Shown: piece after piece, positions 4,543-48,123 of the stretch
Layout of the letters: the number at the start of each line of letters is the position of its first letter
Position numbering within the stretch: the stretch's first letter is position 1
From: Rhodospirillales bacterium
GTDB lineage: Bacteria; Pseudomonadota; Alphaproteobacteria; CACIAM-22H2
Length of the DNA stretch: 48,229 bases
Assembly: GCA_016794025.1 (NCBI GenBank)
Contig: JAEUKX010000073.1
Location: 1 to 48,229, forward strand
Direction of reading: 5' to 3'
Translations under genes and position numbers: made by a program
The notes under the pieces: model-generated
The model's database searches: none
The model's input: the letters and a program-made list of their open reading frames with translations, nothing else
What the model was told of the DNA's origin: nothing

Positions 4543-5328
4543 ATGAAGTCCCTTGCCCGCCTCGCGCTCGTCGCCCTCGCAGCATCAAGCCTCGCCGCCT
4601 GCGGCAACACCTTCGACCGGCTGTCCGAGCTCGGCCAGGGCCCGGCCCTGTCGCCGATCAAGAACCCGGCCGATGCCGCCCCGAAGATCTCGATGCCCAC
4701 GCCGGCACGCCTCGACGAGGATGCCCGCGGCGGTGCATCGCTGTGGCGCACGGGCGCCCGCCAGTTCTTCAAGGACAACCGCGCCAGCCAGATCGGCGAC
4801 ATCGTGACGGTCATCGTCGACATCACGAACGAGAGCGCGGACTTCTCCAACACCTCGACGCGCAGCCGCACGAACTCGGAATCGGCCGACGTCAGCTCGC
4901 AGTTCCTCGGCTACGGCACGCAGAGCCTGATCGAGCGCCTGCCCGGCAACAACCGCACGCCGATGACCGGCACGAGCACGGCAAACCCGCTGTCGCTGGG
5001 CGGTCTCTCTTCGGCCACCTCGAACAACGGCACGGGCCGCATCCAGCGCTCGGAGACGGTCTCGCTGCGCGTCGCCGCGGTGATCACCCAGGTCCTGCCG
5101 AACGGGAACTTCGTCGTTTCCGGCACCCAGGAGGTGCGGGTCAATTTCGAAGCGCGAGTCCTGAAGCTTGCCGGCGTGATCCGGCCGCAGGACATCACGT
5201 CGGCCAATACAATCAAGCAGGACCAGCTGGCCGAAGCCCGCATCGCCTACGGCGGCAAGGGCCAGATGACCGACTTCCAGCAGCCGCGTTGGGGACAGCA
5301 GCTGTTCGACATAATTGCCCCGTTCTGA
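4543..5328 (+). CDS. flgH: Flagellar L-ring lipoprotein FlgH
   Basis: 261 residues. FlgH forms the outer-membrane L-ring bushing of the basal body. The N-terminus is a lipoprotein signal with lipobox LAAC (Cys about residue 20). FlgH motifs follow: SLWRTGARQFFKDNRASQIGD near residues 65-85, IVTVIVDI, and FVVSGTQEVRVNFEARVLKLAGVIRPQDI in the C-terminal half. Start ATG 4543 is chosen because it opens the signal peptide and has ACGGAG upstream; a GTG overlapping the flgA stop would add 11 residues with no benefit. Last gene of the operon, followed by a strong terminator. Confidence 0.96.
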   Translation: MKSLARLALVALAASSLAACGNTFDRLSELGQGPALSPIKNPADAAPKISMPTPARLDEDARGGASLWRTGARQFFKDNRASQIGDIVTVIVDITNESADFSNTSTRSRTNSESADVSSQFLGYGTQSLIERLPGNNRTPMTGTSTANPLSLGGLSSATSNNGTGRIQRSETVSLRVAAVITQVLPNGNFVVSGTQEVRVNFEARVLKLAGVIRPQDITSANTIKQDQLAEARIAYGGKGQMTDFQQPRWGQQLFDIIAPF

Positions 5329-5353
5329 ACGGAACGGACGGCCCCCAGACAGG

Positions 5354-5392
5354 AACCCTCCGCCGGCGACGGCGGAGGGTTTCTACATTTTG
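5354..5392 (+). terminator. Intrinsic terminator after flgH
   Basis: AACCCTCCGCC (5354-5364), loop GGCGAC, GGCGGAGGGTT (5371-5381), then TCTACATTTT. It closes the flgFGAH operon. Confidence 0.85.
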
Positions 5393-5449
5393 CGCAACAC
5401 ACTAGTTATGGTGCCCCGTGAGGAAGCGCGCGCTACATATTATAAATAA

Positions 5450-5484
5450 TTGACATTTGCAAAATGCTTCGCAAAATATTCGCC
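5450..5484 (+). promoter_or_regulatory. Promoter and tandem 12-bp repeats at the lrp-like gene
   Basis: TTGACA at 5450-5455 is followed 17 bp later by AAAATA (5473-5478), a weak -10 placed so that transcription would start near the ATG at 5485. From 5459 two copies of a 12-bp unit (GCAAAATGCTTC, GCAAAATATTCG) abut the start codon. They overlap the promoter and are candidate autoregulatory operator sites. No Shine-Dalgarno sequence is present, so the message may be leaderless. Confidence 0.4.
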
Positions 5485-5973
5485 ATGGATCGTATCGATT
5501 ACGCCCTCCTTGAGGCCCTGCAGGAAGACGCCCGCGCGTCGCTTGCCGAACTCGGCCGGAAAATCGGCCTCTCAATTTCCGCAACCAACGAACGCGTGAA
5601 GAAGCTCGTCGTCGCCGGAACGGTGAAAGGCTGGTTCGTCCGTCTCGACGCCGACCGGCTGGGGTACCCGGTTCTGGCGTTCGTGTCGGTCTCGACCGAC
5701 CGCCCGGACAGCGCCAACGGTTTCATCGCCGCGATGAAGGACCTGCCCGAGGTTCAGGAATGCCACCAGGTCGACGGTGCCTGGAATTTCGTGCTGAAGG
5801 TCCGCGCACGCGACGTGGCCCATCTCGAAGCCATGGTCGCCCGCCAGATCAAGGCCGTTCCCGGTGTCACCGGCACGCAGACGACAATCGTCCAGCGCTC
5901 GCCGAAGGACGGCCAGTACATCCCCTGCCTGCCGCAGGCCGCGGCAGAGGCGCCGGCGCTGGCCCAGGCCTGA
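5485..5973 (+). CDS. Lrp/AsnC family transcriptional regulator
   Basis: 162 residues from ATG 5485. The N-terminal winged helix-turn-helix begins at MDRIDYALLEALQEDARASL, with recognition-helix region IGLSISATNERVKKL. After a linker there is a RAM/ligand-binding domain (GYPVLAFVSVST, then VQECHQVDGAWNFVLKVRARD). This class forms octameric or hexadecameric discs and senses amino acids, usually autoregulating. An ATG at 5464 would add 7 residues but lies upstream of the conserved start; neither has a ribosome site. Single-gene unit between the flgH terminator and a bidirectional terminator shared with dksA. Target genes cannot be deduced. Confidence 0.9.
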   Translation: MDRIDYALLEALQEDARASLAELGRKIGLSISATNERVKKLVVAGTVKGWFVRLDADRLGYPVLAFVSVSTDRPDSANGFIAAMKDLPEVQECHQVDGAWNFVLKVRARDVAHLEAMVARQIKAVPGVTGTQTTIVQRSPKDGQYIPCLPQAAAEAPALAQA

Positions 5974-37736: not shown

Positions 37737-38429
37737 ATGGCTTCCTCAGTCGGCAACACCAGCAGCGCCTCCTCCGCGGCATCCGGCGCAGCCGCCGCCG
37801 CGAAGGCGACTTTCGGGAACAACTTCGACACGTTCCTGAAGATCCTGACCACGCAGCTGCAGAACCAGGATCCGACGTCGCCGATGGACACGACGACGTT
37901 CACCACGCAGCTCGTCCAGTTCTCGCAGGTCGAGCAGTCGATCCGGCAGAACTCGAACCTCGAGACGCTGATCCAGATGCAGCAGGCCACGCAGTCGGCC
38001 AATGCCGTCAACTACATCGGCAAGACGGTCGAGATGAGCGGCGACACGGTCGGGCTGGTCAACGGCCAGGGCACGATCACCTATACGCTGCCGCAGGAAG
38101 CCGCGCGCGTGATCGTCAGCGTCTACAACTCGAGCGGCCAGCTCGTCGCCCAGCAGGACGGCGAGACCAGCCAGGGCGATCATGCGCTGACCTGGAACGG
38201 TTACTCGAACGCCGGCACGCAGGTCGCCGACGGCACCTACAACGTGACCATCTCCGCGATGGACGGCGCCGGCAAGGAAATCCAGACCTCGAGCCGCGTC
38301 ATCGGCGAGGTGACGAAGGTCGACTACGCCGGCGGTACCGTCCTTCTCACGGTCAACGGGATCCAGCTTCCGATCTCGCAGCTCTCGACGGTCCGCGCCA
38401 CGCCGATCTCGACGACGACCGGCAGCTGA
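37737..38429 (+). CDS. flgD: Hook-capping scaffold protein FlgD
   Basis: 230 residues from ATG 37737 with CGGAGA upstream. FlgD caps the growing hook. N-terminal motif: FDTFLKILTTQLQNQDPTSP (about 30-49), MDTTTFTTQLVQFSQVEQSI. The C-terminal FlgD Ig-like domain (VIVSVYNSSGQLV, ALTWNGYSNAGTQVADGTYN) and Tudor-like part follow. Between fliK and the unknown gene; the stop overlaps the next start (TGATG). Confidence 0.96.
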   Translation: MASSVGNTSSASSAASGAAAAAKATFGNNFDTFLKILTTQLQNQDPTSPMDTTTFTTQLVQFSQVEQSIRQNSNLETLIQMQQATQSANAVNYIGKTVEMSGDTVGLVNGQGTITYTLPQEAARVIVSVYNSSGQLVAQQDGETSQGDHALTWNGYSNAGTQVADGTYNVTISAMDGAGKEIQTSSRVIGEVTKVDYAGGTVLLTVNGIQLPISQLSTVRATPISTTTGS

Positions 38430-39073
38430 TGCTCGTCTCGGCCCGCGCGGCCGAACGCAGCGAGGATGCCGGCCGCCCTGCCCTGCACGCGCCCCCGTCC
38501 GGCGCCGGAAGCCCCGGCACCGGACGGGCGTTTGCGCGGATGCTCCAGGACCGCCTCGCGCACGGCGGGATCAATCTGTCGATGCGGCGCTTCTCGCAGG
38601 ACGGGATCCAGATCTTCGTGCCCGAGCGCATGCCGCCCCATCTTCTCGCATGGCAGGCAACGCGCGCGCGTCACGTGCATTTCGCCGCCGGCGTTCCGCT
38701 TGCCGGCCCCCATGCGCGCGCCACGTGGCGCACCACGCTGCTGCCGGACCCTGCTTCGCTTGCCGCGTTCGGCGCACGCACCGGCCTTGCCGTCTTCGAC
38801 ACGGCCGGTCTTGCGGCCCGCTTCGAATTCGTCTGGGTCCGCGGTCCGTCGGGCTGGCAGATCGATCCGGGATCGGGGGCCGACGCCGGGTCCGAGCCGG
38901 CCCGGCGCGAGGTTACGCCCAGTCCCTTCGATGTCGAAGCCGTTCCCGCCGCACTTCACGGCATGTGGCCGGCCAGCTGCGGCCGCTGCCGGCGTTACAC
39001 GCTGGGCCGCAACGCCGGTCCGTCGCTGGCCCTTTGCCGGCGCGATTGCCTGCCAACGATCGGTCCTTTTTGA
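38429..39073 (+). CDS. Unknown protein coupled to flgD, with C-terminal cysteine motif
   Basis: 214 residues; ATG 38429 shares a base with the flgD stop. No family recognised. The N-terminus is flexible; a region about 40-150 alternates charge and hydrophobicity (QDGIQIFVPERMPPHLLAWQ, WRTTLLPDPASLAAFGARTG), suggesting a folded domain. The C-terminus holds SCGRCRRYTL followed by LALCRRDC, that is CxxC and CxxxC, a possible metal site. No signal peptide. It lies between flgD and sciP, so a flagellar or cell-cycle link is likely. Confidence 0.65.
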   Translation: MLVSARAAERSEDAGRPALHAPPSGAGSPGTGRAFARMLQDRLAHGGINLSMRRFSQDGIQIFVPERMPPHLLAWQATRARHVHFAAGVPLAGPHARATWRTTLLPDPASLAAFGARTGLAVFDTAGLAARFEFVWVRGPSGWQIDPGSGADAGSEPARREVTPSPFDVEAVPAALHGMWPASCGRCRRYTLGRNAGPSLALCRRDCLPTIGPF

Positions 39074-39553: not shown

Positions 39554-39568
39554 TTAATCTTTCGTTCA
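39554..39568 (+). promoter_or_regulatory. CtrA-like box upstream of fliF
   Basis: TTAA-TCTTTCG-TTCA, one mismatch from TTAA-N7-TTAA, directly after the FlbD-like pair. fliF is CtrA-activated in Caulobacter. A matching -10 is not evident; 39569-39689 holds no other clear signal apart from GAGGGAAGG before the start. Confidence 0.35.
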
Positions 39569-39689: not shown

Positions 39690-41351
39690 GTGAATAGTTT
39701 CATGGATACGCTCCGCCAGCTGGGGCCGATGCGACTGGGCCTGCTGGGTGCCGTCGCCGTCGGCCTGCTCGGATTTTTCTTTTTCTTTTCAATGCGTTTG
39801 TCCCAACCGCCAATGGCGCTGCTCTATAGCGAGCTGTCGCCCACCGATGCCGGCCAGATCACGGCGCGGCTCGACCAGCAGCAGGTCCCCTTCGAACTGC
39901 GCAACGGCGGCAACACGATCCTCGTGCCCGAGGACCGGGTCCTTCGCCTGCGCCTGAGCTTCGCCGAAGCCGGAATCCCGCGCGGCGGCTCGATCGGCTA
40001 CGAAATCTTCGACAAGGGCGACGTCCTCGGCCAGACGAACTTCATGCAGCAGATCAACCAGACGCGCGCGCTCGAAGGCGAGCTTGCGCGCACGGTCAGC
40101 GCGCTGCAGCCGGTGGCCGGCGCCCGCGTGCATCTCGTGATCCCGCGCCGCGACCTGTTCAACCGCGAGAAGCAGGAGCCCACCGCTTCGGTCGTCCTGC
40201 GCATGCGCGACGCCAACAACCGCCTGCCCCGCCAGCAGGTGCAGGCGATCCAGTCGCTCGTCGCGGCGGCCGTGCCGGGCATGCGGCCGGTGCGCGTGTC
40301 GGTCGTCGACGATCGCGGCAACCTCCTCGCCAAGGGCCAGCCGGAAAGCGACGACCCCTCGGCCACGAACACGTCCTCCGAGGAACTGAAGCGCGCCTAC
40401 GAGCAGCGCTTCGCGCGCACGATCGAAGGCATCATCGAGCGCACGATCGGCCCCGGCAAGGTGCGCGCGGAGGTCGCGGTCGACCTCGACTTTGACCGCA
40501 TCGTGACCAACCAGGAAAGCTTCGATCCCGACGGCCAGGTTGTCCGCTCCACGCAGACCGTGACCGAGACGAACGAGGCCTCGGAGAACGCCGCACAGGT
40601 CTCCGTCCAGAACAACCTGCCCGACGCGGCGCAGGACAGCGGCGGCGCCAAGACGACCAATCGCGGCAACCGGCAGGAAGAGACGACGAACTACGAGATC
40701 ACCAAGACCGTTCGCCAGCACATCCGCGAATCCGGCATCGTGCGCAAGCTGTCGGTGGCCGTCGTCGTCGACGGCACCACCGCGGGCACCGGTGCGGACC
40801 GCAAGTACACGCCGCGCACGCCAGAGGAGATGCAGCAGCTCACCGCCATCGTGCGTTCCGCCATCGGCTTCGACGAGAAGCGCGGCGACAAGCTCGATGT
40901 CGTGAACATGCCCTTCTACGCGCCCGAGGAGATCCCGGTCGACACGAAGGAGCCGGGCCTGTTCGACTTCACGCGCGCCGACCTGCTGCGCCTGGCCGAA
41001 GTCTTCGTGATGGCCATCGTGGCGCTGCTGGTGATCCTGCTCGTCGCGCGCCCGATCATCAACCACGTGCTGCGCTCCGCCCAGGACCGCCGCGAGCAGG
41101 AGCGGCTTGCCGCCGAACAGGCCGCACAGCAGGCCCAGCTCATGCCCGGTGCCGCGCCTGCGGGCCTCGCCCTCCCCGGCGGGCCCGCGCCCGGCATGGA
41201 AGGCCCCAGCGAGATCGAGCAGATGATCGACATCGCCCAGGTCGAAGGCCGCGTGCGCGCCTCCTCGATCAAGAAGATCGGCGAGATCGTCGAAAAGCAT
41301 CCGGAAGAGGCGGTCGCCATCCTCCGCACGTGGATGTACCAGGAAACCTGA
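39690..41351 (+). CDS. fliF: Flagellar MS-ring protein FliF
   Basis: 553 residues from GTG 39690 with GAGGGAAGG upstream. FliF forms the MS ring in the inner membrane. First membrane segment at about 14-34 (LGLLGAVAVGLLGFFFFFSM); ring-building motifs ALLYSELSPTDAGQITARLD and QINQTRALEGELARTVSALQ; second membrane segment about 432-456 (LAEVFVMAIVALLVILLVA). The cytoplasmic C-terminus (EIEQMIDIAQVEGRVRASSI, KKIGEIVEKHPEEAVAILRTW) is the FliG-binding tail and looks intact. First gene of the switch and export operon. Confidence 0.97.
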   Translation: MNSFMDTLRQLGPMRLGLLGAVAVGLLGFFFFFSMRLSQPPMALLYSELSPTDAGQITARLDQQQVPFELRNGGNTILVPEDRVLRLRLSFAEAGIPRGGSIGYEIFDKGDVLGQTNFMQQINQTRALEGELARTVSALQPVAGARVHLVIPRRDLFNREKQEPTASVVLRMRDANNRLPRQQVQAIQSLVAAAVPGMRPVRVSVVDDRGNLLAKGQPESDDPSATNTSSEELKRAYEQRFARTIEGIIERTIGPGKVRAEVAVDLDFDRIVTNQESFDPDGQVVRSTQTVTETNEASENAAQVSVQNNLPDAAQDSGGAKTTNRGNRQEETTNYEITKTVRQHIRESGIVRKLSVAVVVDGTTAGTGADRKYTPRTPEEMQQLTAIVRSAIGFDEKRGDKLDVVNMPFYAPEEIPVDTKEPGLFDFTRADLLRLAEVFVMAIVALLVILLVARPIINHVLRSAQDRREQERLAAEQAAQQAQLMPGAAPAGLALPGGPAPGMEGPSEIEQMIDIAQVEGRVRASSIKKIGEIVEKHPEEAVAILRTWMYQET

Positions 41352-41382
41352 TCGCTGACGCGAAGGCGCACGAGGAAGCCAC

Positions 41383-41628
41383 ATGCAGACCGCAGCCGCA
41401 CCGAACGACCGGATCCCCGCCCGCCACGCCGATGGCCGGCGCAAGGCCGCCATCCTGATGCTGGCACTTGGCGAGGACGCGGCGGCGAAGGTCTGCGCCG
41501 GGCTCGACGATCGCGACATCACAAATCTCGCGATCGGCTTCGCCGATCTCGGCCGCCTCGACGCAAGGGAGGTCGAGCGGCTCATCGACGAATTCGCGGC
41601 CCACGTTTCGCTGTCCCTCGCCGCCTGA
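41383..41628 (+). CDS. fliG: FliG N-terminal domain only (truncated FliG)
   Basis: 81 residues from ATG 41383 with GAGGAAG upstream. Only the FliG-N domain is present: RRKAAILMLALGEDAAAKVC, AGLDDRDITNLAIGFADLGR, LDAREVERLIDEF. Normal FliG has about 330-340 residues with middle and C-terminal domains that bind FliM and the stator; those are missing. The frame closes with a clean TGA at 41626-41628 and fliH starts 24 bp later, so no room or other frame holds the rest. Position (fliF-fliG-fliH-fliN) and the domain type fix its identity. It could still bind the FliF tail. A full FliG elsewhere, or split domains, would be needed for torque. Confidence 0.8.
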   Translation: MQTAAAPNDRIPARHADGRRKAAILMLALGEDAAAKVCAGLDDRDITNLAIGFADLGRLDAREVERLIDEFAAHVSLSLAA

Positions 41629-41651: not shown

Positions 41652-42314
41652 ATGCCCGCCATCAGCAAGTTCCTCTTCCAGGAAGAGTTCGCCGAGCCCG
41701 GCATGGGGCCCGACGGCAACCCGATGCCCGTCATCGTGCGCCGCAAGCCGAAGAACTTTTCCGAAGTCGAAATGGAGATGGCCAAGCAGAACGCGCATGC
41801 CGAAGGGCGCGCGGAGGGCTTCGACGCCGGACGCGCGGAAGCGCTTGCCGATGCCCAGCATCTCGCGGCGCAGGCGCTTGCACGTATCGAGGAAGCCCTG
41901 CCCCAGGCGCTTGCCGCGGCCGACCGCGCGCGCGCGGAGGCCGATGCCGGCGCCGTCCAGGCGATGGGCGCCATCGCGCGCAAGCTGCTGCCGGCGATGA
42001 CCGCCCGTCAGGGCGTGGACGAGATCGAAGCGCTCATGCGCGACTGCCTGGAGCGTCTCGCCGAACAGCCGCGTTTCGTCGCCAAGGTCAACCCGGACGT
42101 CGTCGACATCGTGAAGGGCAAGTTCGATGCGATGGCCGAAGCGCTGGGCTTCGCCGGGCGCATCGTCGTGGTGCCCGACGCCGGAATGCCGGCGACGGAT
42201 GCGCGCATCGAATGGGCGAACGGCGGTGTCGAGCGCAACGTCGCCGACATCTGGAAGGAAATCGAAGACGCGATCGAACGCTACCTGGCCATGCAGCCGG
42301 GCAGCGCCAACTGA
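41652..42314 (+). CDS. fliH: Flagellar export ATPase regulator FliH (FlbE)
   Basis: 220 residues. FliH binds and restrains the export ATPase FliI and docks it at the C-ring through FliN. N-terminal FLFQEEFAEPGMGPDGNPMP, then a glycine-marked helical region (AHAEGRAEGFDAGRAEALAD, GxxxG spacing typical of FliH) and a C-terminal domain (FVAKVNPDVVDIVKGKFDAM, IEWANGGVERNVADIWKEIE). Start ATG 41652 follows AGGAG. Directly after the truncated fliG. Confidence 0.88.
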   Translation: MPAISKFLFQEEFAEPGMGPDGNPMPVIVRRKPKNFSEVEMEMAKQNAHAEGRAEGFDAGRAEALADAQHLAAQALARIEEALPQALAAADRARAEADAGAVQAMGAIARKLLPAMTARQGVDEIEALMRDCLERLAEQPRFVAKVNPDVVDIVKGKFDAMAEALGFAGRIVVVPDAGMPATDARIEWANGGVERNVADIWKEIEDAIERYLAMQPGSAN

Positions 42315-42334: not shown

Positions 42335-42712
42335 ATGGCCGACGAAAAGGTGAATTTCGACGACCTCGACATGGCCAAGGCCATGGCGGGGGATCCCGCG
42401 ATGGGTGGGGCCGCGGCGGGCGGCGGCGGCGGTGGCGGCGGTGGCGATGGCCGCCAGGCGCGCACGGCCAAGGAACTCGAGGCCGTCTACGACATTCCCG
42501 TGACCGTCTCGGCGGTGCTGGGCAAGGCGACGATGCAGGTCAACCAGCTCCTCAAGCTGGGCCGCGGCGCCGTCGTCGAACTCGACCGCAAGGTTGGCGA
42601 GGCGATCGACATCTACGTGAACAACCGCCTCGTCGCGCGCGGCGAGGTCGTCGTCGTCGACGAGCGTCTCGGCGTGACGATGACGGAAATCGTCAAGGTC
42701 GACCGCAGCTGA
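42335..42712 (+). CDS. fliN: Flagellar motor switch protein FliN
   Basis: 125 residues from ATG 42335, GAAGGAG upstream. FliN forms the base of the C-ring. The C-terminal SpoA domain is typical: YDIPVTVSAVLGKATMQVNQ, LLKLGRGAVVELDRKVGEAI, DIYVNNRLVARGEVVVVDER. The N-terminus is linked by a run of nine Gly residues (GGAAAGGGGGGGGGDG), coded by GGC/GGT repeats at about 42418-42450 that could slip in replication. Confidence 0.95.
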   Translation: MADEKVNFDDLDMAKAMAGDPAMGGAAAGGGGGGGGGDGRQARTAKELEAVYDIPVTVSAVLGKATMQVNQLLKLGRGAVVELDRKVGEAIDIYVNNRLVARGEVVVVDERLGVTMTEIVKVDRS

Positions 42713-42740: not shown

Positions 42741-44114
42741 ATGCGCCTGCTCATCATCGGTTCGCTCAGCGGCCAGGTCTCGACGGCCGCGAAGATCGCC
42801 ATCTCGCGCGGTGCGCGCGTAAGCCAGGTCGACGACGTCGCCCGCGGCCTCGACGCGCTGCGCGCCGGCAAGGGCGCGGATCTGGTGATGATCGACGTCG
42901 GTCTCGACATCGGCGGCCTGGTGGATGCGCTGCGTACCGAGCGCATCCATATCCCGGTCGTCGCCTGCGGCATCGGGACGGATTCGGCCGCGGCCGTGCG
43001 CGCGATCAAGGCCGGCGCCAAGGAGTACATCCCCCTTCCGCCCGAGCCCGAGCTGATCGCCGCCGTCCTTGCCGCCGTGACCGAGGAAAGTGCCGCCATC
43101 GTGTTCAAGGATCCGGCGATGGCCGATACGCTGCGGCTGGCCGAGCGCGTGTCGGCCTCCGACGCCTCCATCCTGATCACGGGCGAGTCGGGCACCGGCA
43201 AGGAACTGATGGCCCGCTACATCCACGCCAAGAGCAAGCGCGCGGGCGCGCCCATCATCTGCGTCAACTGTGCCGCCATTCCCGACAACCTGCTGGAAAG
43301 CGAGCTGTTCGGCCACGAGAAGGGCGCTTTCACCGGTGCGGTCGCGCGCCGCATCGGCAAGTTCGAGGAAGCCAACGGCGGCACGCTCTTCCTGGACGAG
43401 CTCGGCGAGATGGATATGCGCCTGCAGGCCAAGCTCCTGCGCGCGATCCAGGAGCGCGTGATCGACCGCGTGGGCGGCACGACGCCGATCAAGGTCGATA
43501 TCCGCATCCTCGCCTCGACCAACCGAGATCTCGAATCCGAGGTGCGCGCCGGCCGCTTCCGCGAAGACCTCTATTTCCGCCTGAACGTCGTGACCGTGCG
43601 CCTGCCGCCCCTGCGCGCGCGCCCGCAGGACATCGACGTGCTGGCCGAGCATTTCATGCGCAAGTACGCCGAGGCCAACGGAACCGACGCGCGCGCCTTC
43701 GCGCCCGAGGCCATGGCCATGCTGCGCGCCCACGCCTGGCGCGGCAACGTGCGCGAACTGGAGAACACCGTCCACCGCGCGGTCCTGCTCGCCAAGGGCC
43801 CGATCGTGGGCCCAGAAGCGATCGTGCTGCAGGGCGCCACGCGGCCCGAAGACCGTCCGACCGCGGCCGCCGCGGCACCGGGCGGCAGTGCGGCCGCTGC
43901 CGGCCCGAAGGGCGCCCTCGTCGGCCGCACGGTCGACGATGTCGAGCGCGAACTGATCCTCGACACGCTCACGCACTGCCTTGGCAACCGCACGCACGCG
44001 GCCAACATCCTCGGCATCTCGATCCGCACCCTGCGCAACAAGCTCAAGATCTACAGCGACCAGGGCTTCGCGCCGCCGCCGCCCACCGGCGGCGAGCCGC
44101 GCGCGGCGCTCTGA
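42741..44114 (+). CDS. flbD: Sigma-54-dependent flagellar regulator FlbD
   Basis: 457 residues. FlbD is a sigma-54 activator of late flagellar genes and in Caulobacter a repressor of fliF, controlled by FliX. N-terminal receiver-like domain (1-115); AAA+ domain with Walker A GESGTGKE (148-155), GAFTGA loop that contacts sigma-54 (195-200), Walker B GGTLFLDELGEM (213-224) and GNVRELEN; C-terminal Fis-type helix-turn-helix (LGNRTHAANILGISIRTLRN). An Ala/Pro/Gly linker (about 373-390) precedes the last domain. Its likely DNA sites are the CCGGCA-N5-TGCCGG palindromes in this window. Confidence 0.94.
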   Translation: MRLLIIGSLSGQVSTAAKIAISRGARVSQVDDVARGLDALRAGKGADLVMIDVGLDIGGLVDALRTERIHIPVVACGIGTDSAAAVRAIKAGAKEYIPLPPEPELIAAVLAAVTEESAAIVFKDPAMADTLRLAERVSASDASILITGESGTGKELMARYIHAKSKRAGAPIICVNCAAIPDNLLESELFGHEKGAFTGAVARRIGKFEEANGGTLFLDELGEMDMRLQAKLLRAIQERVIDRVGGTTPIKVDIRILASTNRDLESEVRAGRFREDLYFRLNVVTVRLPPLRARPQDIDVLAEHFMRKYAEANGTDARAFAPEAMAMLRAHAWRGNVRELENTVHRAVLLAKGPIVGPEAIVLQGATRPEDRPTAAAAAPGGSAAAAGPKGALVGRTVDDVERELILDTLTHCLGNRTHAANILGISIRTLRNKLKIYSDQGFAPPPPTGGEPRAAL

Positions 44115-44143: not shown

Positions 44144-46252
44144 ATGGCCGAACCAGCCGCAGGCCAGGAGGCACCCGGATTCGACGCGATGGAGCGCCTG
44201 CGCGCGCTCGGCCGCCAGGGCGAAGTGCTGCTGGCGCTGGGCGTGTTCGGCATCCTGCTGGTGCTGCTTGTCCCGCTGCCGACCTGGCTCGTCGACATCC
44301 TGCTGGCACTGTCGATCACGATCTCGGTCCTGATCCTGCTCGTCTCGCTGTTCATCCAGAAGCCGCTGGATTTCAGCTCGTTCCCCACGATCCTGCTCAT
44401 CGCCACGCTGATGCGCCTGTCGCTCAATCTCGCGACGACGCGCCTCATCCTTTCGCACGGCCACGAGGGCATCCACGCCGCGGGCGAAGTCGTGCGCGCC
44501 TTCGGCGGCCTGCTGATGGGCGGCAACTTCGTCATCGGCGTGATCGTCTTCGCGATCCTCGTGATCGTGAACTTCGTCGTCATCACCAAGGGTTCGGGGC
44601 GCATCGCCGAAGTGTCGGCCCGCTTCAACCTCGACGCGATGCCCGGCAAGCAGATGGCCATCGATGCCGACCTGTCGGCAGGCCTCATCGACGAGGCGAC
44701 CGCGCGCAAGCGCCGCACCGACCTGGAGGACGAGAGCACCTTCTTCGGATCGATGGACGGTGCGGCGAAGTTCGTGCGCGGCGACGCCGTCGCGGGCCTG
44801 CTCATCACGTTCATCAACGTCATCGCCGGCATCATCATCGGCACGACGAGCCACGGCCTGACGGCCGCGCAGGCCGCCGGCTACTACACGCTGCTGACGG
44901 TCGGCGACGGCCTGGTGAGCCAGGTTCCCGCCCTGATCACATCGGTCGCGGCCGGCCTGCTCGTTACCAAGGCGGGCATCCGCGGATCGGCCGACAAGGC
45001 GCTGTTCGGCCAGCTCGGCGGCTATCCCAAGGCGCTTGTTCTCTGCTCGGTGCTGACGGCGGCCCTTGCCGTGGTGCCGGGCCTGCCGTTCATCCCGTTC
45101 GCGATCCTGGCGGTGACCAGCGGCTATGCCGCCTACCAGATGTTCCGCCAGCAGGAACGCCAGATCGCCGAGGAAGCCGTGCAGAAGGCGATCGCCGAGG
45201 CGCCGCCGCCGCCGGCCGAGGAACCGATCCAGGCCTCGCTCCACATCGACCTGATCCGGCTCGAGCTGGGCTACGGCCTGCTTCCGCTCATCAACGCCGA
45301 CAAGGGCCAGCGCCTGACCGACCAGATCAAGGCGCTGCGCCGGCAGCTTGCGGGCGACATGGGCTTCGTGATGCCTTCGGTGCGCATCCAGGACAACATG
45401 CAGCTGCCCTCGACCGAGTACGCGCTGCGCATCAAGGAGATCATCGCCGGGCGCGGCGATCTTCGCCCCGGCCTGCTGCTCGTCATGGACCCGCGCGGCG
45501 ATGCCATCGCGATGCAGGGCGAGCCCACGAAGGAACCGACCTTCGGGCTGCCGGCGATGTGGGTCGACGAATCCATGCGCGAGGAGGCCCTGTTCAAGGG
45601 CATGACGGTCGTCGATCCGCAGACCGTCATCACCACGCACCTGACCGAGATCATCAAGGACAACATGGCCGAGCTGCTCTCGTACACCGAGACGCAGAAG
45701 CTTCTCGACGAGCTTGGCAAGGAACACAAGAAGCTCGTCGACGAGATCGTGCCCACGCAGATCACCGTCGGCGGCCTGCAGCGCGTGCTGCAGAACCTGC
45801 TGGCCGAGCGCATCTCGATCCGCGACCTGCCCGCCATCCTCGAGGGCGTCTCAGAAGCCACCTCGCAGACACGCAACATCACCGCGATCACCGAGCATGT
45901 CCGCTCGCGCCTCGCCCGCCAGATCTGCGAGCAGAACTCGGTCGACGGCGGCTTCATCCCGCTCGTCTCGCTCGGGCCGGAATGGGAGCAGACCTTCGCC
46001 GAATCCATCGTCGGCCAGGGCGAGGACCGGCAGCTGTCCATGCAGCCCTCGCGCCTGCAGGAGTTCATCCAGCTCATCCGCACCACCTTCGAGCGCCACG
46101 CGATGCTCGGCGAGAACCCGGTGCTCCTGACGAGCCCGCTTGCCCGCCCGTTCGTTCGCTCGATCATCGAACGCTTCCGCCCTGCGACGGCCGTAATGTC
46201 GCAGAACGAGATCCATCCGAAGGCCCGCATCAAGACCGTGGGGACGATCTAA
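44144..46252 (+). CDS. flhA: Flagellar type III export gate protein FlhA
   Basis: 702 residues. FlhA forms the nonameric export gate. The N-terminal half has about eight membrane segments (LLALGVFGILLVLLVPLPTW, ILLALSITISVLILLVSLFI, NFVIGVIVFAILVIVNFVVI) with the FHIPEP signature region (MRLSLNLATTRLILSHGHEG, RFNLDAMPGKQMAIDADLSA). The C-terminal cytosolic part (from about 350) contains the chaperone-docking domain (DLIRLELGYGLLPLINADKG). ATG 44144 lies 29 bp after flbD. Confidence 0.97.
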   Translation: MAEPAAGQEAPGFDAMERLRALGRQGEVLLALGVFGILLVLLVPLPTWLVDILLALSITISVLILLVSLFIQKPLDFSSFPTILLIATLMRLSLNLATTRLILSHGHEGIHAAGEVVRAFGGLLMGGNFVIGVIVFAILVIVNFVVITKGSGRIAEVSARFNLDAMPGKQMAIDADLSAGLIDEATARKRRTDLEDESTFFGSMDGAAKFVRGDAVAGLLITFINVIAGIIIGTTSHGLTAAQAAGYYTLLTVGDGLVSQVPALITSVAAGLLVTKAGIRGSADKALFGQLGGYPKALVLCSVLTAALAVVPGLPFIPFAILAVTSGYAAYQMFRQQERQIAEEAVQKAIAEAPPPPAEEPIQASLHIDLIRLELGYGLLPLINADKGQRLTDQIKALRRQLAGDMGFVMPSVRIQDNMQLPSTEYALRIKEIIAGRGDLRPGLLLVMDPRGDAIAMQGEPTKEPTFGLPAMWVDESMREEALFKGMTVVDPQTVITTHLTEIIKDNMAELLSYTETQKLLDELGKEHKKLVDEIVPTQITVGGLQRVLQNLLAERISIRDLPAILEGVSEATSQTRNITAITEHVRSRLARQICEQNSVDGGFIPLVSLGPEWEQTFAESIVGQGEDRQLSMQPSRLQEFIQLIRTTFERHAMLGENPVLLTSPLARPFVRSIIERFRPATAVMSQNEIHPKARIKTVGTI

Positions 46253-46255
46253 GCC

Positions 46256-47299
46256 ATGCGAATGAAGGCCTATACGGCGGCCTCCGCCGAGGAAGCGCTC
46301 CGCCAGATCCAGCGGGAACTCGGCGACGATGCGCTCGTCGTGTCGACCGAGACCGACGGGGCCGGCGTGCGCGTCGTCGTGGCCATCGAAAGCGGGCCCG
46401 AACTGCCCGAGCCGGCCTTCGCCCCGCAGCTCGTCGCCGACGCGGACGACGAGGACTTCGTGCCCCCCGACATCGGCCCGCGGTTCGGGCGCGGCGCGCC
46501 GCCGCCGGAAGGCGACGCGCTCGCGAAGGTTCTTTCGTTCCACGCCCTGCCCCCGATGCTGGCCGCGCGCCTGGAGGAAGGCGGGCGGCTCGGCCGCCGC
46601 GCGCCGAGCGACAGCGTCGGCACGGCCCTCGCCCGGCGCCTCGCCGGCGGTTTCCGCTTCGCCCCGCTGGCCTCGCGCACCGCGGCGACGCCGATCCTCA
46701 TGGTCGGCCCGCATGCGTCCGGAAAGACACTGGCACTCGCCAAGTTCGCGGCACAGGCCGCACTCGAAGGGACCGCCGTTCGTATCGTCTCGACCGACCG
46801 GAATTCGGCCGGCGGCGTGCCGGCGCTGGCCGCCTTCGCGCAGATCCTGGGCGTGCCCTTCGACGTCGCCGAACGGCCCGAAGACGTGCAGCGCTTCGCG
46901 TTGGGCAAGTTGCGCGGCACGCTGCTGTTGATCGATACGGCCGCCGCCGATCCGCGCGAGGAAGCACAGATCGCGGCACTCGCGCGCCTCGCCGTCGCCG
47001 TGGGCGGCGAACCGGTCCTGACGCTGCCCGCCGGGCTTGATGTCGCCGAAAGCGCCGAGATCGCGGAAGCCTTCTCGCGTGCCGGCTGCACGCGCATCGT
47101 GCCCACGCGCATCGACGTGGCGCGGCGCATGGGCGGCCTGCTGGCCGCCGCAGCCGCCGGCACCTATGCCTTTGCCGAGGCGTCCGCCTCGGCCAGTCCT
47201 GCCGATCCGCTCGAGCCACTCGACGCCGAGCGTTTCGCCCGCATTCTCGTCGCCGCCGCCGGTCCGCGCGCGGCACGCAACACGGAGGCCGTATCGTGA
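46256..47299 (+). CDS. flhF: Flagellar SRP-type GTPase FlhF, divergent motifs
   Basis: 347 residues. FlhF marks the pole for the flagellum. N-terminal basic B domain (MRMKAYTAASAEEALRQIQR), N domain, then the SRP GTPase domain. Motifs deviate: G1 is GPHASGKT (151-158), the DTxRxGA element reads TDRNSAGGVPAL, G3 is DTAAA (227-231, usually DTAGR), and G4 TRID (284-287, usually TKxD). GTP binding or hydrolysis may thus be reduced. It overlaps flhG by 4 bp. Confidence 0.88.
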   Translation: MRMKAYTAASAEEALRQIQRELGDDALVVSTETDGAGVRVVVAIESGPELPEPAFAPQLVADADDEDFVPPDIGPRFGRGAPPPEGDALAKVLSFHALPPMLAARLEEGGRLGRRAPSDSVGTALARRLAGGFRFAPLASRTAATPILMVGPHASGKTLALAKFAAQAALEGTAVRIVSTDRNSAGGVPALAAFAQILGVPFDVAERPEDVQRFALGKLRGTLLLIDTAAADPREEAQIAALARLAVAVGGEPVLTLPAGLDVAESAEIAEAFSRAGCTRIVPTRIDVARRMGGLLAAAAAGTYAFAEASASASPADPLEPLDAERFARILVAAAGPRAARNTEAVS

Positions 47300-48123
47300 G
47301 CACGATCCACACCCTTCCCTATGCCGAGGCGCACACGCGCTCGGTCGTGGAGACCGGTCAGGACACGCGGCCCGCGACCTCGCTTGGCCTCATCGCCGTC
47401 GCCTCCGGCAAGGGCGGCGTGGGCAAGACCTGGTTCTCGATCACGCTGGCCACGGCCCTTGCCCGCCGCGGCCTCAAGACACTGCTGTTCGACGGCGATC
47501 TCGGGCTTGCGAATGTCGACATCCAGCTCGGGCTCTTCCCCAAGCGCGATCTCGGCCACTACTTCGCGGGCGCGCACTCGCTGCCCGAGTGCGTGACCGA
47601 ATATCCCGTCGGCGGGTTCGACATCCTGGCCGGCCGTTCCGGGTCGGGAAATCTCGCGAGCCTCGCCCAGCCGCGCTTCGCGCAGCTCGTGCGCGATCTC
47701 TACGAGCTATCTGCCGACTACGAGGCGACGATCGTGGATCTGGGTGCGGGCATCGAGGCGCACACGCGCGGCCTTGCGGCACTGGCGCGCACCTGCGTCG
47801 TGGTGACCAACGACGAGCCCACCGCGCTGACCGACGCCTACGCCTTCATCAAGGTTCTGACCAACCATCGCCAGCGCAACGACCTTCGCATCGTCATCAA
47901 CAGCGCGGGCAACCCCACCCAGGGCCAGCGCATCCACGAGACGCTTACGAAGGCCTGCCGCGAGTTCCTGCGTTTCGAGCCGCCGCTGCTGGGTGTCGTG
48001 CGCCGCGACGGGCGCGTGCGCGATTCGATACATGCGCAGACGCCCCTTCCCGTGCGCCACCCCGGCGCGCACGCGGCCGTCGATGTCGAGGCGATCGCCG
48101 CACGCCTCGCCGGAAGGGCGTGA
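47296..48123 (+). CDS. flhG: MinD-like ATPase FlhG (YlxH/FleN), flagellar number regulator
   Basis: 275 residues from GTG 47296 with GGAGG upstream. FlhG counteracts FlhF and limits flagellar number. Deviant Walker A SGKGGVGKT (37-45), DGDLGLANVDIQLGL (66-80), and DLGAGIEAHTRGL as Walker B region. It keeps the arginine/lysine-rich MinD fold, and the N-terminal 30 residues would carry the FlhF-activating segment. Last complete gene; its stop overlaps the next start. Confidence 0.92.
   Translation: MSTIHTLPYAEAHTRSVVETGQDTRPATSLGLIAVASGKGGVGKTWFSITLATALARRGLKTLLFDGDLGLANVDIQLGLFPKRDLGHYFAGAHSLPECVTEYPVGGFDILAGRSGSGNLASLAQPRFAQLVRDLYELSADYEATIVDLGAGIEAHTRGLAALARTCVVVTNDEPTALTDAYAFIKVLTNHRQRNDLRIVINSAGNPTQGQRIHETLTKACREFLRFEPPLLGVVRRDGRVRDSIHAQTPLPVRHPGAHAAVDVEAIAARLAGRA

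Follow-up and report, generated by a model that had tools for sequence, protein, structure and literature searches.

A FliG D1-only gene in the fliF-fliH slot of the flagellar operon in the genus holding Tagaea

FliG links the membrane-supramembrane (MS) ring of the flagellar motor to the torque-generating cytoplasmic (C) ring. Cryo-electron microscopy of Salmonella places FliG domain D1 at residues 1-67 and D2 at residues 73-99, with the FliF tail wrapping D1 and D2 completing the D1 of the next subunit (PMC11087270), and neighboring FliG subunits contact each other through helices 5 and 6 of one and helices 2 and 3 of the other (PMC11528121). No consensus exists on MS ring stoichiometry; departures from a 1:1 FliF:FliG ratio have been proposed, and the Salmonella study proposes FliF33:FliG34 (PMC11087270). 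In Borrelia, two FliG homologs, FliG1 and FliG2, divide labor within one flagellar system, and no D1-only homolog is described in the passages cited (PMC7225975). In E. coli and Salmonella, FliF-FliG fusions indicate that the joint between the FliF tail and FliG-N can be altered, affecting ring size and switching, but these cases are laboratory fusions or deletions rather than a natural, separate D1 protein (PMC7355467, PMC6700473). Here, we describe a gene for a free-standing FliG domain D1, hereafter mini fliG, between fliF and fliH in a 48,229-nucleotide stretch of DNA from a Rhodospirillales bacterium (assembly GCA_016794025.1, contig JAEUKX010000073.1, positions 1 to 48,229 of the forward strand), the whole of which is termed the window. 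The genus concerned, which holds Tagaea, resembles Borrelia in having multiple FliGs in a single flagellar system, but differs in that two to five further FliGs and the D1-only protein accompany one FliF.

The mini fliG open reading frame (ORF) spans 41383..41628 on the + strand, begins with ATG, ends with TGA at 41626-41628, and encodes 81 amino acids; a ribosome-binding-like stretch, GAGGAAG (41372..41378, +), lies four bases 5' of the ATG. A reading of the locus made from the DNA alone (the sequence-only reading) had claimed just such a clean short frame with its own ribosome site, and this is confirmed. Because only 23 bases separate the stop codon from the next gene, which starts at 41652, a remnant of the FliG M and C domains could not be accommodated downstream. 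The sole Pfam domain in the mini protein is FliG_N (PF14842; 49.4 bits against a cut-off of 25, E = 7.8e-13), matched over positions 3-61 of a 104-position profile. The sequence-only reading had taken the 81 residues to be all FliG-N; FliG_N is the only domain present, but judged from the profile match the protein is the first part (D1) of FliG-N and less than the whole domain. As that reading had also stated, neither the middle domain with its EHPQR-type FliM-binding motif (ORF and Pfam) nor the C-terminal torque domain (PF01706; Pfam scan) was detected in the 81-residue protein, which, since D2, M, and C are all absent, is without both the EHPQR-type motif and the torque helix. Four helices are predicted (residues 13-29, 31-39, 43-57, and 61-80), and four helices are likewise present in the best of five AlphaFold models (predicted local distance difference test, pLDDT, 81.5). 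Structurally, this model best matches FliG D1, both as seen in C-ring structures and as bound to FliF in the complexes 5tdy and 5wuj, and mini residues 13-79 align structurally with Salmonella FliG 3-67, so that the predicted structure has the FliG D1 fold. Compared with canonical FliG, as known from Salmonella, Thermotoga, and Helicobacter structures, the mini protein shares the D1 sequence, the predicted fold, and the fliF-fliH slot that FliG occupies in the outgroups seen, but is without D2, M, and C and has an altered helix 3.

The gene is not peculiar to the window. A D1-only ORF of 79-92 amino acids occupies the fliF-fliH slot in all 11 genomes of the genus, that is, the window's own and ten others (G001-G010), with 74-86% identity to the window's protein in six of them and 33-36% in G001, G006, G009, and G010. 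All 11 proteins end at a common point, approximately FliG residue 67-69, which is the D1/D2 border and lies before D2 (73-99), and the D2 that completes the neighbor's D1 is absent from every one. The mini proteins could bind FliF in the manner of D1 but have no D2 to donate; D1 is the part of FliG wrapped by the FliF tail, and on this homology, binding of the mini protein to the FliF C-terminal tail is predicted. The nine listed genus records are all metagenome-assembled, and the window's own genome is a fragmented assembly, 86.6% complete. In a public protein set, scoring was applied to the 7,995 candidates with the most words in common, and 47 clusters including the window's own reached at least 82 bits against the mini profile, the next match standing at 62 bits; these clusters were assigned by profile score, not by slot. 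One mini-type member lies on a 4.45-Mb contig, and one mini-type cluster (P0044) looks frame-shifted.

Outside the genus, the same slot holds a full FliG. Of 24 named outgroup loci, one (L063) stops at a contig edge, and the remaining 23 (Kiloniella, Dongia, Pelagibius, and others) all carry a FliG of 336-341 amino acids between fliF and fliH, as do four of four same-family genomes outside the genus (G011, G012, G013, and G016); in G014, FliG adjoins fliH at a contig start. A D1-only slot was thus seen in 0 of 27 fliF-fliH slots outside the genus, and a conserved D1-only FliG in the fliF slot is a new layout among the genomes compared. The novelty proposed by the sequence-only reading stands to that extent, and relatives with full-length FliG at this locus, which it had named as evidence against itself, exist outside the genus only. 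Among 143 genomes of the class, 85 of them outside the genus with a FliG_N match, no D1-only gene in another lineage was found at a cut-off of E 1e-8, at which a mini gene as diverged as that of G010 would escape. Two frames of fewer than 140 amino acids turned up in this survey (G146, 73 amino acids; G075, 138 amino acids), both stopping at contig edges, and viral contigs yielded two loci matching residues 31-46 only. In the open-access literature searched, which leaves subscription papers mostly uncovered, no report was found of a D1-only FliG in a fliF operon or of Tagaea FliG.

A D1-only protein at another locus is present in genus g5 of the same family (L049, L050; P0099-P0101). This 98-amino-acid protein, like the mini protein, is D1-only (FliG_N 1-61 of 104), but differs from it in locus and sequence, its gene lying directly 3' of hisI (named by eye) at L049:6343-6639 (G014) and L050:1800-2096 (G018). 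G014 has both the hisI-linked D1 and the full FliG adjoining fliH, and G018 has the hisI-linked D1, apparently without a flagellum. Several other variants of FliG were noted along the way. Two FliG-like proteins, of 292 and 320 amino acids (L132:5196-6074 in G062 and L133:5176-6138 in G153), match FliG_N only to position 60-61, and D2 seems shortened or missing in them; the second follows a FliF-like gene (by eye). In a same-family genome (G017:C41, L023), a stop interrupts the FliG frame after about 151 residues. Genus g7, also in this family, has another type of full-length FliG (338 amino acids), encoded just 5' of a fliF, the reverse of the usual order (L016, L020, and L021, in G019, G016, and G021, respectively), and a second flagellar system may exist there.

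The partner predicted for the mini protein is intact, in line with what the sequence-only reading had claimed for the FliF tail. The fliF gene (39690..41351, +) is complete, encodes 553 amino acids, and has both Pfam domains, and its last 50 codons (41199..41348, +), the FliG-binding tail by homology, specify a sequence that is invariant in 10 of 10 aligned genus FliFs, G008 having been left out, as its FliF is cut by a contig end. Across 45 pairs in the genus, the last 54 columns average 98.1% identity versus 84-85% elsewhere in FliF; in Kiloniella, the corresponding values are 91.8% and 89.0% (28 pairs). As a separate observation on this tail, the FliF of Denitrobaculum and relatives (L080, L085, and L086) matches the window's FliF only to residue 437, and the tail looks diverged there beside a full FliG. 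Upstream of fliF, a motif scan located the site TTAA-N7-TTCA (39554..39568, +), which we take to be CtrA-like, with one mismatch to what is presumably the CtrA consensus, TTAA-N7-TTAA. The site lies 133-158 bases 5' of fliF in eight of eight genus upstream regions scanned (G001, G008, and G010 were left out), whereas a similar site (TTAA-N7-TTAA, at most one mismatch) was present in 1 of 40 regions upstream of orphan fliG genes. Given a CtrA-like site that precedes fliF but is rare at orphan fliG, the mini gene is likely made with fliF and under other control than the full-length copies. In a scan for sigma-54 promoters, 0 of the 40 orphan fliG regions exceeded shuffled sequences (lowest P 0.07), nor did the regions upstream of fliF, the mini gene, flgD, flgG, and the ORF at 1895; the region upstream of flgI did.

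The mini frame is open in 11/11 genomes, and neither the broken frame nor the absence of purifying selection that would mark a pseudogene was found. The ratio of nonsynonymous to synonymous substitution rates (dN/dS) is 0.13-0.37 within the main clade of mini genes (21 pairs) and 0.15-0.40 within the second clade (6 pairs), and the gene is under purifying selection within each clade. Because the tree groups all 11 mini genes in one clade (support 100/100), one origin is supported. In a tree of D1, this clade falls among the rows of FliG group A, from which it may derive, and an approximately unbiased (AU) test with group A and the mini genes held together gave p 0.275, both results resting on 78 columns and a very long mini branch. 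Conservation differs among the helices: within D1 of full FliG, helix 3 is the most conserved (0.72 identity, genus versus outgroup), but it is the least conserved helix of the mini protein (0.35 and 0.25 versus full FliG, and 0.13 between the mini clades), while helices 1 and 4 retain 0.35-0.50 identity to full FliG. We infer that the change in helix 3 likely represents loss or change of the FliG-FliG contact.

The suggestion that a full FliG lies elsewhere proved correct both for the window's own genome and for every other genome of the genus, each of which has two to five further FliG genes (FliG_N matches). In the window's genome, contig C87 encodes a three-domain FliG, 338 amino acids of which are read up to the contig edge, and its ortholog group (73-95% identical) is present in 11/11 genus genomes; C115 stops within a second FliG, and C81 starts within a FliG C-domain. 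These two pieces may belong to one gene, but their neighbors point partly to two different orphan loci. No fliF was present in any locus fetched for the further FliG genes. FliG_C matches number 2-6 per genus genome, some being contig-edge pieces, whereas of 12 other genomes, 10 have one and two have none. The full-length FliGs keep an EYPQT motif in 38 of 38 rows, and the 33 rows that extend far enough also have a charged torque helix with GPVR, GPLR, or GPIR. FliF is single in 10/11 genomes and so is FliM, the exception for both being G008, in which FliF is represented by two contig-edge pieces, FliM is missing, and contamination is rated at 5%; a second flagellar system owning the other FliGs was considered and is not supported by these counts.

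In a tree of 52 FliGs, 38 of them from the genus (three genus fragments shorter than 200 amino acids were dropped), the genus copies form one clade (Shimodaira-Hasegawa-like approximate likelihood ratio test 99, by a quick method), making it likely that the set arose by duplication inside the lineage. In six same-genome paralog pairs tested, D1 is 77-88% identical in DNA, and blocks between residues 150 and 340 reach 89-100% in five pairs and 75-87% in the pair from G010. For D1, orthologs of close genomes (87-96%) are more alike than paralogs, which is not so in the rest of fliG; it is only in certain blocks of G004, G005, G006, and G009 that paralogs of one genome clearly surpass paralogs of different genomes in identity. 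The pattern resembles partial gene conversion of the FliM- and stator-interacting parts, with D1 differing by locus, the alternative being shared constraint, and a locus-specific D1 would be in keeping with FliGs whose main difference is their contact with FliF. In the paralog pairs L100/L101, L103/L104, L109/L110, and L117/L118, the more alike blocks lie after about residue 150, and several contigs break inside them. One extra FliG, L120 (G010:C2), is fast-evolving (branch 0.86) and has no close counterpart elsewhere in the genus. Genes of a single protein cluster end 12-13 bases 5' of one orphan fliG group on the same strand (L091:8154-8804, L095:2946-3593 and 4867-5529, and L098:7292-8002), with PAS_5 in L091, the sole one scanned.

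Based on the data presented above, we tentatively favor an explanation that we hold to be nearly as probable as not, in which the mini protein is a non-chaining partner of the FliF tail, a plug or placeholder on the MS ring, and full-length FliGs dock separately. The mini protein is predicted to co-fold with the FliF C-terminal tail and so to occupy FliF sites on the MS ring, while the torque ring is likely made of the dispersed full-length paralogs. Seated on FliF, the mini protein would stay out of the FliG-FliG chain, because D2 is absent and helix 3, part of the D2-receiving surface, is altered. Made together with FliF, it may protect or nucleate the MS ring and limit or space the full-length FliGs that dock later, and it would either stay in the finished motor or be displaced. 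The role of MS-ring cap or tuner offered by the sequence-only reading would fit part of the structural and evolutionary evidence. A two-layer rotor, with a resident, operon-encoded, non-chaining FliG-D1 plug and interchangeable full-length FliGs from two to five unlinked genes, their D1 diverging by locus and their FliM and stator parts kept alike partly by gene conversion, is an idea we regard as unlikely.

A number of observations weigh against the plug explanation. The four remaining AlphaFold models scored 67-75 on an alignment of 11 rows, the structural Z of the mini model is below the tool's safe level, the best Foldseek E-value is 3.9e-3, and in G006 and G009, the FliG_N profile match extends about 15 positions beyond the mini stop codon. 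Conservation of helix 2 matches that of helix 1 (0.52 and 0.47 versus full FliG, 0.58 between the mini clades), and since helix 2 is also D2-receiving, a simple loss of that surface is disfavored and the non-chaining step weakened. In the second clade, the glycine after helix 1, invariant in full FliG, is aspartate, and the glycine ending helix 3 is glutamate. In Vibrio, FliG:FliF is taken as one to one (PMC11481574), which leaves little room for a plug, although the ratio proposed from Salmonella differs. The hisI-linked D1 persists in G018, a genome with no FliF or FlhA match, so that a free D1 may serve something other than the motor. Within the main clade, the mini gene is also less constrained than fliF (dN/dS of fliF 0.01-0.16 for the pairs available); between the clades, its dN/dS is 0.44-1.03 (28 pairs, with dS near saturation) and its dN 0.65-0.86, approximately five times that of fliF (0.13-0.16) and above that of fliH (0.27-0.33), and the stem of the mini clade is long. 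This fast divergence, with the weaker constraint and long stem, also fits relaxed constraint.

One rival explanation is a vestige, left when FliG was duplicated and moved and the operon copy decayed, with only a part for read-through to fliH, or nothing, still selected. Full-length FliG elsewhere would make the slot copy dispensable, and the fast divergence of the two clades and the long stem count in its favor, but the open frames with their shared end point, the within-clade dN/dS of 0.13-0.40, and the intact predicted fold lead us to judge a vestige improbable. Slightly better placed, if still doubtful, is a transient assembly aid that would be made beside FliF, keep the FliF tail folded, promote MS-ring formation, and then give way completely to full-length FliG, so that it has no place in the running motor. 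The mini gene shares operon and order with fliF, the absence of D2 and the change in helix 3 suggest that its product stays out of the FliG chain, and efficient MS-ring formation by Vibrio FliF in E. coli depends on FliG or FlhF (PMC11481574), yet flhF is in the same operon here, and an MS-ring helper therefore already exists.

Unlike these, a split FliG, with the mini protein supplying FliG-N and a second protein FliG-M/C in one rotor, is very hard to sustain. D1 does break at the natural D1/D2 boundary, and the sequence-only reading had raised the idea, but the whole-genome search that found the further FliG genes found no M/C-only gene in any of the 11 genus genomes: every FliG_C match and every FliG_M match over the cut-off sits in a full-length or contig-edge-cut FliG frame, the full-length paralogs retain their own D1, and G004, assembled in 10 contigs, has five full-length FliGs and one mini gene but lacks any gene for M/C alone. 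We give the least credence of all to an assembly or sequencing artifact cutting a full-length fliG at this position. The window's genome is fragmented and incomplete and contigs do break inside FliG copies, but a like short ORF, 33-86% identical, recurs in ten further assemblies, and one mini-type member lies within the 4.45-Mb contig.

The remainder of the operon is whole, as the sequence-only reading had held. Downstream of mini fliG, all on the + strand, lie a fliH-type gene (41652..42314), fliN (FliMN_C; 42335..42712), an flbD-type sigma-54 activator gene (42741..44114), flhA (FHIPEP; 44144..46252), flhF (SRP54-type GTPase; 46256..47299), and flhG (ParA/MinD-type ATPase; 47296..48123). All were identified by Pfam except the fliH-type gene, which has no significant Pfam match and is named from its position and weak tblastn similarity to the gene that relatives carry at this position. 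Pfam domains were also found in flgD, fliK, flgI, and flgG, earlier in the window. Between flgD and fliF, an ORF of 214 amino acids (38429-39073) without a Pfam match at E 0.001 is kept beside fliF in the genus.

These results imply that the pairing of fliF with fliG, kept in 27 outgroup slots, can be broken. With its natural, conserved D1-only protein, one FliF, and several full-length FliGs, this genus provides a test of whether a non-torque subunit can fill FliF sites, and equally of how the mixing of FliG paralogs tunes the motor. If the two-layer rotor were true, the plug would set the number and identity of the docking FliGs, giving one motor with exchangeable torque rings.
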